A stretch of DNA of 64,000 bases. It comes from Streptomyces sp. CBMA29. GTDB taxonomy: Bacteria; Actinomycetota; Actinomycetes; Streptomycetales; Streptomycetaceae. This document shows, piece by piece, positions 5,398-9,000 of this stretch. The position numbers and the translations under genes were made by a program. Position 1 is the stretch's first letter. Each line of letters starts with the position of its first letter. The stretch is from assembly GCF_014596445.1 (NCBI RefSeq), contig NZ_MECL01000224.1:62001-126000 (forward strand), written 5' to 3'. The notes under the pieces were generated by a model, which saw nothing but the letters and a program-made list of their open reading frames with translations, did no database searches and had not been told where the DNA came from.

Positions 5398-5619
5398 GTC
5401 CTGTACGCCCAGGTCAGGAAGCTGCCCTGGCGGGACATCCCACTCGGGCACCGCACTCGCGACCACGCCGACCACCTCGACGAGGTCCGCCGGCTCAAAG
5501 TCGCCGCTTTCAGCCACCTCGACTACCCCGGCGCCCGCCAGACGATCCAAGTCGTACGGTGGCGACGCGACTTGAGGACCGGGAAGCTGACCATCGAGCG
5601 CGTCTACTTAATCGCCACT
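5398..5619 (+). pseudogene. ISAs1-family transposase fragment (left)
   Basis: Within an open frame from 5278 to 5757, the part from VLYAQVRKLPWRDIPLGHRT through LDYPGARQTIQVVRWRRD to ERVYLIAT matches the middle of ISAs1-family transposases. The catalytic N-terminal half is missing and the C-terminus is lost after LIAT. It cannot encode an active enzyme. Confidence 0.72.
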
Positions 5620-5786: not shown

Positions 5787-6005
5787 TCAGTCCGAGTTGT
5801 TGCGGTACGGTCCAACCACCATGGCCGCCAGGAAGGGCGTAGCCGTCATAATCGGAAGCGAGGTGGAGAAATTCCCCGTGATCAACCTGTGGGCCACCAC
5901 CGTAATAATATAAACAGCCGCAAATACTGCCCCCTTGATCAACCTGGATAGACCAAGATAGCGATTCAACCATCTTGCACACCGGTCAAGAAACAGCATC
6001 GTCAC
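5787..6005 (-). CDS. small membrane protein, candidate Rhs immunity protein
   Basis: 72 residues starting at a GTG that overlaps the rhs stop (GTGA at 6005-6002); ATG 5999 is an alternative. Two hydrophobic segments are visible, one from LIKGAVFAAVYIITVVAHRL and one from LPIMTATPFLAAMVVG, so it should sit in the cytoplasmic membrane. Small genes directly downstream of an Rhs tip usually encode the cognate immunity protein; that role is inferred from position and coupling only. The region is lower in G+C than its surroundings. No homologous family is recognised. Confidence 0.6.
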   Translation of the reverse strand: MTMLFLDRCARWLNRYLGLSRLIKGAVFAAVYIITVVAHRLITGNFSTSLPIMTATPFLAAMVVGPYRNNSD

Positions 6006-8191
6006 TTACCGAACCTCTCCAACATCATGGTCACTTCGTATTCCATCTGCGTTACCTGTATTTGCAGTTGAAGGTACCGCCCCTCCAGATTGGCCCCTAC
6101 GGCCGGGCCGGCCGCTCTCGTCGTCGCCTTCAACGTCGAGTAACGCGCCGACCCCAGGCGAAGAACCCCGATCGTAAGGAAGCCGAGAGCACCTCCTGTC
6201 ACAGTATCCTTGATGAAAACCGGGTCATTCCACGGTGTGTGCCCGCCGCTTATTACCTCGTCACTCGCTGCCGCCGCGCTAGCCCCTACGGCAACGGCAC
6301 ACGCAATACCCGTTTCAGGACAAAGAAATCCCGATACGCCGATCGAGAGGTAGGTCAGACCGGATGCGATCGTAAGCGTTGTTGGATCCGGGGCTGGTAC
6401 CACGTCGTACGGCAGTACAGGAGAACCGGACTTCACGTGGCCTACTCGCCGAGTTCCATACTGGCACGTTTGGTAAGCAGAGCCCTGAGAGAGCATGCAG
6501 GCCGCCATGTACCGCTCCATGGCCTGATCGGCGTCCCCAGAATCGATCCACTGCGCCACGGAAGCTACTGTCACTGCTTTCGAGCCTTTATAGCCCAGTT
6601 TTTTGAGTTTTTCGTACTCGTCGCTGGTTGCTGGATAGCCGAGGAACAAAATGGTGGCCGTGGTGGGTTGCTTGGGCTTGGCTGTGCCCCCTGTTGACAG
6701 CTGACCGTAGTTGGGGTCGTGCGGCTGGCCGTCCAGTGTGCACATTGGTGGGCAATCACTGTCTGGAGTGGTGCTCGTACTTGCCGGCCGAGTAGAGGGT
6801 TGCGGGCACGCCTCTTCGAAATTGCCGCCGCAAGCAAGGCGTGTGCCTGTGGGGTCGCTGTTGGTAACAGGGGTGTTGTCGGCGTAGTCGTAGCCGCTGA
6901 GGGACTGGGGGTCATTGGGGTCAAGGAGGGGGTCGACGCTGATGAAACGGCCGGTGGTGGGGTCGTAGTCGCGGGCGCCGATGTGTGTGTAGCCGGTGGT
7001 GGTGTCGATGTCGCCGTTGACGAAGCCTTTCTGGCCGGGCCAGAAGCTAGGGGCGGTGCCGCGGGGGGCGCCGTAGGGCATGGTCTTGCGGCGGTTGAAA
7101 GCGAGCGTGGTGGCGCTCACAGAGAGGGTGTTGGTGCCGTGCGGATCCGCTACCAGGAGGCGGACGCGGGCGTCGCTGCTGGTGCGGATGGCTGAGCCGC
7201 CGGGGATTGTGTAGTAGCGAGTTCCGGCCACGGTGTTGATGGACTTAGTGAGGGCGAGTTCTTGTCCGCCAGGCAGGTAGAGGGTGGTGACAGTGGGTTC
7301 GCGCTTGAGGATGCGGGTGCCATCAGCGTCGTAGAGGAACGCGGTGGTGGCACCGGAGACCGCAGAAGTGGCCAGCCGTCCCTGTTGGTTCCAAGTGAGG
7401 CCCTGCGCGGCTCTGGTGGCGGGGGTCTTCGTGGTGAGGTTACCGGCTTCGTCGTACTGGTAGGTATCTGTCCCTGTGGCTCCGCCTGTGGCGGTGACGT
7501 TGAGCACCGCGTGGGGCCGTGCGGCACCGGTGGTGGTGGGGTAGGTGTAGTTGCGGGTCGTGTTGGCCGTGATGGGGCCGGCTTTGTGCTGAGTCTCCGT
7601 GGCCCGGTCGGCACTGTTGGTGAAGGTCCAACTGGTCCAGTACGGGTCCACGCTGCCGAGCGCCGGGGTACCGGTGCCGTTGACTGGTCGGGTCGTGCAG
7701 GCGTCGGCGGTGGTCCATGCTTCCGACAGACGCCGGGCCCAGTCGTAGGCGAAGCACTGGTCGTCGGCGATGGTGCCGTCGTTCTGATCGTCCCGGACCC
7801 GCGTGACGTTCCCTGCCGTGTCGTAGGTGTACTTGATGTTCGACAGGGTCTGCGGTCCGGATGCCTGGCGGTCGACGAGCGTTGAGGCCAGGCGGTGAGT
7901 GATGGCGTCGTACCCGAGAGTCTGGACGACCATGGCTCCGGTATTGCCGAGCTGAGCCTGGGCGAGTTCCCCGAAGAGGGTATAGCTGGCGCCACGCAGG
8001 TAGACCTGCGACAGCGTGCCGTCGACGATACCGAGTTGGTCCTGGTCACCATAGTGGTTGGTGACGGTCTCGGTGGGCAGGGCCGTCGTGGCGTTGGCAT
8101 TGCCGGTGCTGTAGGCAGTGGTGGCGGGCAGGCGGGCGTTCGCCGTGCTGGACACCATCGACGACGCGGACCTGCACGAGGTCGTGATCAC
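6002..8191 (-). CDS. C-terminal part of an Rhs/YD-repeat polymorphic toxin, truncated
   Basis: The frame (729 codons) opens with GTG inside transposase sequence; true Rhs sequence begins near 8130, so the long N-terminal shell and any secretion domain are missing. Visible parts are YD repeats (YTYDTAGNVTRVRDD, YQYDEAGNLTTKT, FLYDADGTRILKR) and the Rhs core (GYTHIGARDYDPTTGRFISVDPLLDP, then PVTNSDPTG). After the core the last 280 residues change character: a Pro/Thr/Cys-rich linker, a soluble stretch with LKKLGYKGSKAV, then two hydrophobic segments (ASGLTYLSIGVSGF with AVAVGASAAAA, and GALGFLTIGVLRL). No nuclease, deaminase or ADP-ribosylation motif is recognised. The tip may act on membranes. 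Expression is uncertain because the native promoter is gone. Confidence 0.75.
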   Translation of the reverse strand: MITTSCRSASSMVSSTANARLPATTAYSTGNANATTALPTETVTNHYGDQDQLGIVDGTLSQVYLRGASYTLFGELAQAQLGNTGAMVVQTLGYDAITHRLASTLVDRQASGPQTLSNIKYTYDTAGNVTRVRDDQNDGTIADDQCFAYDWARRLSEAWTTADACTTRPVNGTGTPALGSVDPYWTSWTFTNSADRATETQHKAGPITANTTRNYTYPTTTGAARPHAVLNVTATGGATGTDTYQYDEAGNLTTKTPATRAAQGLTWNQQGRLATSAVSGATTAFLYDADGTRILKREPTVTTLYLPGGQELALTKSINTVAGTRYYTIPGGSAIRTSSDARVRLLVADPHGTNTLSVSATTLAFNRRKTMPYGAPRGTAPSFWPGQKGFVNGDIDTTTGYTHIGARDYDPTTGRFISVDPLLDPNDPQSLSGYDYADNTPVTNSDPTGTRLACGGNFEEACPQPSTRPASTSTTPDSDCPPMCTLDGQPHDPNYGQLSTGGTAKPKQPTTATILFLGYPATSDEYEKLKKLGYKGSKAVTVASVAQWIDSGDADQAMERYMAACMLSQGSAYQTCQYGTRRVGHVKSGSPVLPYDVVPAPDPTTLTIASGLTYLSIGVSGFLCPETGIACAVAVGASAAAASDEVISGGHTPWNDPVFIKDTVTGGALGFLTIGVLRLGSARYSTLKATTRAAGPAVGANLEGRYLQLQIQVTQMEYEVTMMLERFGK

Positions 8192-8755
8192 GGTGGACGC
8201 GATGCACGCGCAGAAAGATCACGCCCGCTACATCGTCGAGGACCGCCACGCCCACAACCTGCTATCGGTGAAGAACAACTAGCTTACGCTCGCGGGTCAG
8301 TTGAGAAAGTTGCCCTGGGCCAAGGGCATCTGTCCTTGACCGTTCATGCGAGCGGGGACACGGCCGCAAGGAGATACGGGAGGTAAAAGTCGTCTCCGTG
8401 GACGGCCTGCTCTTCCCGCACGCCCGCCAGGTCGTTCGCATCCACCGCAAACGCCGGCCCCTCGGTGCGAAGAAATGGCAGACCGAGACGGTCTACACAG
8501 TCACGGACCTGCCCGCCCACCAGGCATCCCCCGCCGAGATCGCCTCCTGGGCCCGCGACCACTGGATCATCGAGGACACCGTCCACTGGATCAAGGACGT
8601 CACTTTCCCCGAGGACGGCAGCCAAATCCGAAGCCGCCACAGCCCGGCCGTCATGAGCCCCTTACGCGACCTGACCCGGCTGGACCAACATCGCCAGCGG
8701 CAGACGCGCTCACACCCGCCTCGACACAGCCCTCAACCTGCACGGCATCCCATGA
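8137..8755 (+). pseudogene. ISAs1-family transposase fragment (right)
   Basis: The translation FAVLDTIDDADLHEVV, ITVDAMHAQKDHARYIVEDR and LLSVKNN matches the ISAs1 catalytic core. It is broken by CAG to TAG just after KNN at about 8281, a further stop, and a frameshift before GHGRKEIREVK at about 8350. It then continues through LFPHARQVVRIHRKRRPLG and WIIEDTVHWIKDVTFPEDGS. A second frameshift near 8670 restores the C-terminus WTNIASGRRAHTRLDTALNL, ending at TGA 8753-8755. The N-terminus is missing, cut at the rhs junction. Confidence 0.75.
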
Positions 8756-8768
8756 TCAAAACGGACGA

Positions 8769-8789
8769 ACGGGATTCTCCCCGGGGCCC
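8769..8789 (-). repeat. right terminal inverted repeat, ISAs1 type
   Basis: The sequence ACGGGATTCTCCCCGGGGCC plus one base is the near-perfect reverse complement of the left repeat and lies 13 bases after the transposase stop, as expected for an ISAs1 end. Confidence 0.75.
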
Positions 8790-8820
8790 TGCACCCACCC
8801 CCACCGGACAGGCGGACGCC

Positions 8821-9000
8821 GACGTACCGGGAGGGGACGGGGCGGGGTGCCCCCGCAGAAATACGTTGACAAGAAGGTCACCGGATACGAGGGGCCAGGT
8901 GTTACGGATTTCGAGGAGGTACCCCGGGCCGGGACCGACCCAGGCACAAGCGGCACCCGCAGACGGAGAAAGCACCCGCACGGGTGGGCGGGCGGGAAAA
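8821..9000 (-). repeat. 3'-end repeat family, copy 3
   Basis: Full-length 180-base copy. Read on the minus strand it begins 5 bases after the SDR stop (9006) with TTTTCCCGCCC and the CACCCG/CGGGTG hairpin, then the conserved GGTACCTCCTCGAAATCCGT block. It lies just outside the right IS end. Confidence 0.75.

Follow-up and report, generated by a model that had tools for sequence, protein, structure and literature searches.

Our combined findings suggest that the window, by which we mean the whole 64,000-nucleotide stretch of Streptomyces sp. CBMA29 DNA analysed here, carries the end of an Rhs polymorphic toxin gene together with a candidate immunity gene. The explanation that best fits the whole, and that we consider fairly probable, is that the 280-residue tip behind the Rhs core is a toxin C-terminus and that the 72-residue membrane protein encoded beside it is the cognate immunity protein. 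The pair is found in several genomes, with overlapping genes, a common shift in base composition and neighbours of the membrane type. A toxin-immunity pair had already been proposed in a first-pass annotation of this DNA, and that reading is well supported because tip and membrane neighbour co-occur; its qualifications are the weak similarity of the window's small protein to the other two, a membrane action that we infer, and a window copy that is a 5'-truncated remnant.

The Rhs core, the tip and the overlapping gene

A profile scan of the window matched the Rhs-associated core (TIGR03696) at 51 bits, against a cutoff of 32.5, and YD_repeat_2x was also matched. YD repeats are thus followed by a C-terminal core and then by a variable tip, and because of this organisation of core and tip the gene can be placed among the Rhs polymorphic toxins (Table 1). 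The core ends in PVTNSDPTG with 280 further residues behind it, as the first-pass annotation had correctly located and described.

Table 1 Features of the Rhs cassette and its surroundings in the window.
Feature	Position	Strand	Evidence or remark
Second ISAs1-family transposase remnant (residues 242-314)	5401..5619	+	tblastn 1.4e-23, 60% identity
Candidate immunity gene, 72 residues, two predicted helices	5787..6005	-	GTG start overlaps tip stop (GTGA)
Rhs frame, 729 codons	8191..6002	-	YD repeats, Rhs-associated core and tip
Tip (Rhs-CT), 280 residues	6002..6844	-	Homologs L042/L049, L043/L050
C-terminal helix LEGRYLQLQIQVTQMEYEVTMMLERF, approximate	6011..6088	-	Alignment; coordinates from residue numbers
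Hydrophobic hairpin GLTYLSIGVSGFLCPETGIACAVAVGASAAAAS with CP.TG..C turn, approximate	6263..6361	-	Alignment, hydropathy; coordinates from residue numbers
GY.G..C..C module (YEKLKKLGYKGSKAVTV...CMLSQGSAYQTC), approximate	6464..6616	-	Alignment; coordinates from residue numbers
3' Rhs gene fragment (YD repeats, Rhs-associated core to PVTNSDPTG)	6845..8146	-	TIGR03696, YD_repeat_2x
ISAs1-family transposase remnant (residues 193-376 of L049 copy)	8136..8697	+	NF033564, tblastn

The tip is laid out as a Cys/Pro linker, a GY.G..C..C module, a hydrophobic hairpin and a C-terminal LQLxVTQME helix, and it ends at a TGA stop codon (6004-6002). Seven positions of the module alignment are invariant (Y35, G42, Y43, G45, T50, C74 and C85), and the conserved cysteines of the tip suggest an oxidising, extracellular setting. 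Two hydrophobic stretches had been annotated in the tip; one stretch exceeds a hydropathy cut of 1.6 in a 19-residue Kyte-Doolittle window, a crude measure. The AlphaFold model of the tip (pLDDT 35) was not usable. Neither the tip nor the 72-residue protein gave a significant match among Pfam, NCBIfam, PADLOC or PHROGs profiles or PDB sequences, consistent with the earlier statement that the tip has no known toxin motif, and no wall-protein family appeared among the tip's profile matches. Enzyme families were likewise without a match to the tip in profile and sequence searches. In being hydrophobic and without a recognisable enzymatic domain, the tip resembles that of the Tse5/Tsi5 type.

The GTGA overlap between the tip stop and the 72-residue frame, reported in the first-pass annotation, is seen in the sequence, and the frame sits behind a Shine-Dalgarno-like GGAGAGG. 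When the downstream DNA was shuffled with dinucleotides preserved, that GTG opened a frame of 66 aa or more in 525 of 5000 shuffles, and an equally hydrophobic one in 32 of 5000; an open frame at this GTG is thus not rare by chance, whereas one so hydrophobic is rare. Of the two membrane helices attributed to the small protein, one rises above the 1.6 cut; the second remains below it, yet appears in a low-confidence AlphaFold model (helices 21-43 and 49-67, pLDDT 59). The second helix of the small protein does exceed 1.6 in two relatives of the cassette (L049 and L046).

Relatives of the tip and their membrane-protein neighbours

We searched for the tip at several taxonomic depths. Apart from the window's own genome, neither the 395 genomes sampled from the family nor the 396 sampled from the phylum gave a match at E 0.001 or better; weak matches at family level (E ~0.003-0.008) were treated as chance. 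Among 35 genomes of the genus the linker after the core was matched and nothing else, and two loci considered as tip relatives (L002 and L003) were rejected, as the part they have in common with the window is this linker and not the tip proper. Plasmid and viral-contig searches yielded no tip relative. An early contig scan with the window tip alone had missed the relatives that were later recovered by an order-level search, in which a sample of 392 genomes gave two matches (L042/L049, E=5.9e-20; L043/L050, E=3.8e-12). Each match forms the C-terminal end of a full-length Rhs frame, 2,219 aa long in L049 and 2,166 aa long in L050. When 84,980 species genomes were scanned by pattern, the same two loci alone came up, L049 from Streptomyces sp. 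SM10 and L050 from Streptomyces sp. JJ38. Their tips are ~30% identical to that of the window, with sharp conservation of the C-terminal LQLxVTQME helix and conservation also of the CP.TG..C turn in the hairpin and of a Y.......GY.GS module. Both belong to intact Rhs genes whose N-termini, by inspection, look Sec-type, and each gene lies behind a long gene that is LamG-like (domain named by inspection).

These searches point to tip and partner as a rare, undescribed family in Streptomyces relatives, with three full-length tips in the narrow family. Its most conserved part is the C-terminal helix (invariant columns L, R, L, Q, V-T-Q-M-E and E). A displaced, broken tip (L046, 1432-1970) retains the hairpin and the C-terminal helix, adjoins a transposase end and lies upstream of an Rhs core remnant. 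Four further loci (L045, L047, L053 and L054) form a wider set, sharing with the window the GY.G..C..C module and a hydrophobic tail. We also considered whether the window tip had lost its toxin domain by truncation and rejected this, since L049 and L050 share its end motif and its type of gene overlap.

Directly behind the L049 tip lies a 66-residue membrane-protein frame with a GTGA overlap, and directly behind the L050 tip one of 71 residues with a TAGTG overlap; position, size and layout of the small frame are thus conserved across L049, L050 and the window. The displaced L046 tip is followed, with an ATGA overlap, by a 68-residue two-helix frame of unrelated sequence. By position and type, a predicted immunity gene directly downstream of the tip is conserved in L049, L050 and L046. 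The first-pass annotation had looked to co-occurrence for its support, and an overlapping small membrane frame was found in both other genomes with a full tip as well as at the displaced one; neither of the two outcomes named as speaking against the pair occurred, as the tip matched no wall-protein family and the position of the small frame is conserved. In the wider set, the tips are followed by a 184-residue membrane protein with four helices (L045), a 96-residue membrane protein with two helices (L053), and bPH_6-bearing membrane proteins directly behind hydrophobic Rhs tips (L047, 854-1390; L054, 782-1378), which are a possible immunity family; the bPH_6 score is above the Pfam cutoff in L047 and below it in L054. 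In total, a membrane neighbour was present at 8 of 8 tip loci (window, L049, L050, L046, L045, L047, L053 and L054) versus 1 of 17 other Rhs loci of the window's genome (Fisher p ~8e-6); in this comparison the few controls all belong to a single genome, the hydropathy cut is crude, and the tip loci, being relatives, are not wholly independent. The same comparison for the three full narrow-family loci alone gave p = 0.0035. The sole other Rhs locus of the window's genome with an overlapping membrane protein (L030, G000:C4) has a tip that is not hydrophobic; downstream of its Rhs stop is a 280-residue protein with a -4 overlap and three hydrophobic stretches.

Between the small proteins of L049 and L050 homology is clear, with z 9.5 and, when the shuffles preserve the pattern, z 6.9. 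To these two the window protein is only weakly similar, at z 2.2-3.2. In the two unbiased tests it reached p ~0.01-0.04 against pattern-preserving shuffles, and rank 5 among the 957 frames of the window with a profile built without it. Its homology in sequence to the other two is therefore probable.

Tip and partner also stand apart in base composition. The first-pass annotation had pointed to a lower G+C, and indeed G+C is 0.58 in the tip and 0.53 in the small frame versus 0.66 in the core, with neighbouring genes at ~0.70-0.72. GC3 in the window is 0.84 for the core, 0.64 for the tip and 0.67 for the small gene; the corresponding values are 0.82, 0.57 and 0.58 in L049 and 0.80, 0.61 and 0.54 in L050. 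Tip and partner thus depart together from the core in GC3 at each of the three full loci, which is what an exchange of cassettes would be expected to produce.

The weak similarity of the window protein to the other small proteins, and the different families from which the wider-family partners come, would also fit a small protein that is an accessory of the toxin (a chaperone, or a partner in its export or insertion) or the product of a membrane gene with no relation to it. We regard this as improbable. Overlapping translation, conserved position, a common base-composition shift and turnover of the partner with the tip are traits of toxin-immunity pairs, and in Tsi5 an Rhs pore toxin is already known to have a membrane immunity protein with two TM regions. 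An immunity protein remains our preferred reading of the small frame.

A proposed mode of action and known systems

Rhs shells encapsulate their tips, and an aspartyl protease at the core end releases them (PMC9637101, PMC10684867). Tse5 of Pseudomonas aeruginosa delivers a pore-forming tip, which is neutralised by the two-TM membrane protein Tsi5 (PMC9637101, PMC10684867). By analogy, the most likely mechanism for the tip is membrane insertion and depolarisation, functionally like Tse5/Tsi5. We infer toxicity and autocleavage for the tip, and immunity for its partner, as parts of the same scheme. In the intact relatives the tip would terminate a Sec-exported Rhs protein of ~2,200 residues, the shell of which would hold the hydrophobic tip and free it after the conserved DP...DPTG core. 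The core end in the window reads DPLL-X22-DPTG, as compared with an aspartyl-protease motif of DPXG-X18/19-DPXG; both Asp residues and the final DPTG are kept, whereas the first Gly and the spacing deviate. Hairpin and C-terminal helix would then insert into the membrane of a neighbouring cell, collapsing its membrane potential, and the small protein, in the producer's own membrane, would block insertion or assembly of the tip.

Doubt about the hairpin as the toxic part arises because a further Rhs locus (L048) has a similar CPET..C hairpin standing before a HINT-like region (HINT read by eye) and further sequence. The hairpin may thus serve in translocation, with the terminal helix as the effector. 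In its full form, this alternative holds that the hairpin does no more than bring the toxin through the target membrane, that the C-terminal LQLxVTQME segment or the GY.G..C..C module is toxic, and that the small protein blocks entry; the C-terminal helix, which is better conserved than any other part of the narrow family, and the wide sharing of the GY.G module would be in keeping with it. We nonetheless consider it unlikely, because the stretch behind the hairpin is only ~60-80 residues long and shows neither a recognisable catalytic motif nor a family match, and because membrane-protein neighbours at all eight loci fit a membrane target better.

The proposed membrane-inserting tip has counterparts in several known systems. 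The likeness to Tse5/Tsi5 lies in the Rhs shell, the hydrophobic tip without predicted enzymatic activity and the adjacent two-transmembrane immunity protein (PMC9637101, PMC10684867). That system, however, is Gram-negative, with T6SS delivery and a PAAR-like N-terminus, whereas the relatives found here are from Streptomyces and have a Sec-type N-terminal signal (by inspection). PDB sequence searches with the tip and with a tip profile gave no significant match and revealed no homology to Tse5-CT or Tsi5. Tip and partner probably work like Tse5/Tsi5, with a sequence relationship not found in the searches run here. The T7SS toxins EsxX, TelE and TspA depolarise membranes and are matched by the membrane immunity proteins ExiCD and TsaI (PMC12744356). 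They resemble the present pair in their Gram-positive producers, a membrane-inserting hydrophobic C-terminus, membrane-located immunity and the known occurrence of orphan immunity genes, but they use a T7SS scaffold in place of Rhs, and EsxX and TelE have cytoplasmic DUF5085 partners, none of which was seen here (PMC12744356). Tox-WTIP (Zhang et al. 2012, PMC3482391), a tip with two membrane-spanning helices that is predicted to form pores, likewise occurs together with Rhs repeats; it differs in its RxxR and Wx[ST]IP motifs and its proteobacterial distribution (PMC3482391), and the window tip, having no Wx[ST]IP, falls outside this two-helix class. The immunity proteins Imm17 and Imm-CdiI (Zhang et al. 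2012, PMC3482391) resemble the putative partner in having two transmembrane helices; Imm17, however, has WxW (PMC3482391), whereas the 72-residue protein has a single Trp, no WxW and no Pfam match.

It is quite possible, if somewhat short of probable, that the narrow and wider sets together represent an undescribed group of actinobacterial Rhs toxins that are exported by Sec. Their tips would share the GY.G..C..C module and the hydrophobic hairpin, carry no enzyme and depolarise membranes, and would be matched by rapidly exchanged membrane immunity proteins of several unrelated kinds (two-helix of 66-72 residues, two-helix of 96 residues, four-helix and bPH_6-bearing). In the narrow family of this putative group, the hairpin would possibly be closed by a disulfide.

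A stranded cassette among insertion-sequence remnants

The first-pass annotation had overlooked the 5' truncation of the Rhs gene in the window. Homology of the window frame to its paralogs begins at frame residue 16, near 8146, and its alignment with the intact relative L049 (2219 residues) starts only at residue 1513 of the latter. Judged from these alignments, ~1,500-1,510 N-terminal residues are gone, the export signal among them, and the promoter region has gone with them; a full-length protein with an export signal, as in Rhs polymorphic toxins, is thus not encoded here. The truncation is not a contig-end artefact because the site is inside a 177-kb contig. The window copy is therefore a fragment of an Rhs polymorphic toxin member, an orphan cassette of tip and immunity gene and no working Rhs toxin gene.

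One transposase remnant (8136..8697), interrupted by an in-frame stop and a change of frame, directly adjoins the Rhs fragment at the truncated 5' end; this remnant scored 53.9 bits with NF033564, under the cutoff of 70, and 2.4e-26 in tblastn. The second lies on the opposite side of the cassette, beyond the 72-residue gene. In SM10, an apparently intact ISAs1-family transposase gene (L049:10486-11697) lies just downstream of the small gene, and the remnants that flank the window cassette are of this same family. A G+C-rich repeat of ~130-217 bp, 87-92% identical, is also present in three copies in the window (8785-9000, 2317-2529 and 2708-2841). Rhs cores were matched 19 times in the window's genome, 18 of them above the cutoff, and several cores lie in frames of only 360-600 aa, which suggests that numerous Rhs ends in this genome are displaced or broken. 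The tip itself was absent from the Rhs paralogs fetched from it.

Whether the window copy is decaying debris only, with tip and small gene neither expressed nor selected here, is in our view evenly balanced. The ~1,510 N-terminal residues, export signal and promoter region lost from the Rhs gene, the transposase remnants on both sides, and a promoter scan that found no sigma-70-like promoter (the scan is weak for actinomycetes) are consistent with decay, whereas no frameshift interrupts the 729-codon Rhs frame or the small frame, each of which is open, and orphan immunity genes are retained in other systems (PMC12744356). This question concerns the state of the window copy and is compatible with the toxin-immunity reading of the family. 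As the Rhs gene has lost its front part, the pair in the window is an orphan cassette between insertion-sequence remnants, and this copy probably lies silent as a spare part. Any remaining activity would at most be that of the immunity gene, or the tip may act as a donor in recombination.

If the toxin-immunity reading is true, it would add a membrane-acting toxin-immunity family to the actinobacterial Rhs proteins, the best characterised Rhs pore-former, Tse5, being from a T6SS bacterium. It would also provide a testable case of partner turnover, in which one tip architecture stands with several unrelated membrane proteins. The window copy and L046, by its transposase end, are tip cassettes stranded beside insertion sequences, and may represent a possible store for tip exchange.
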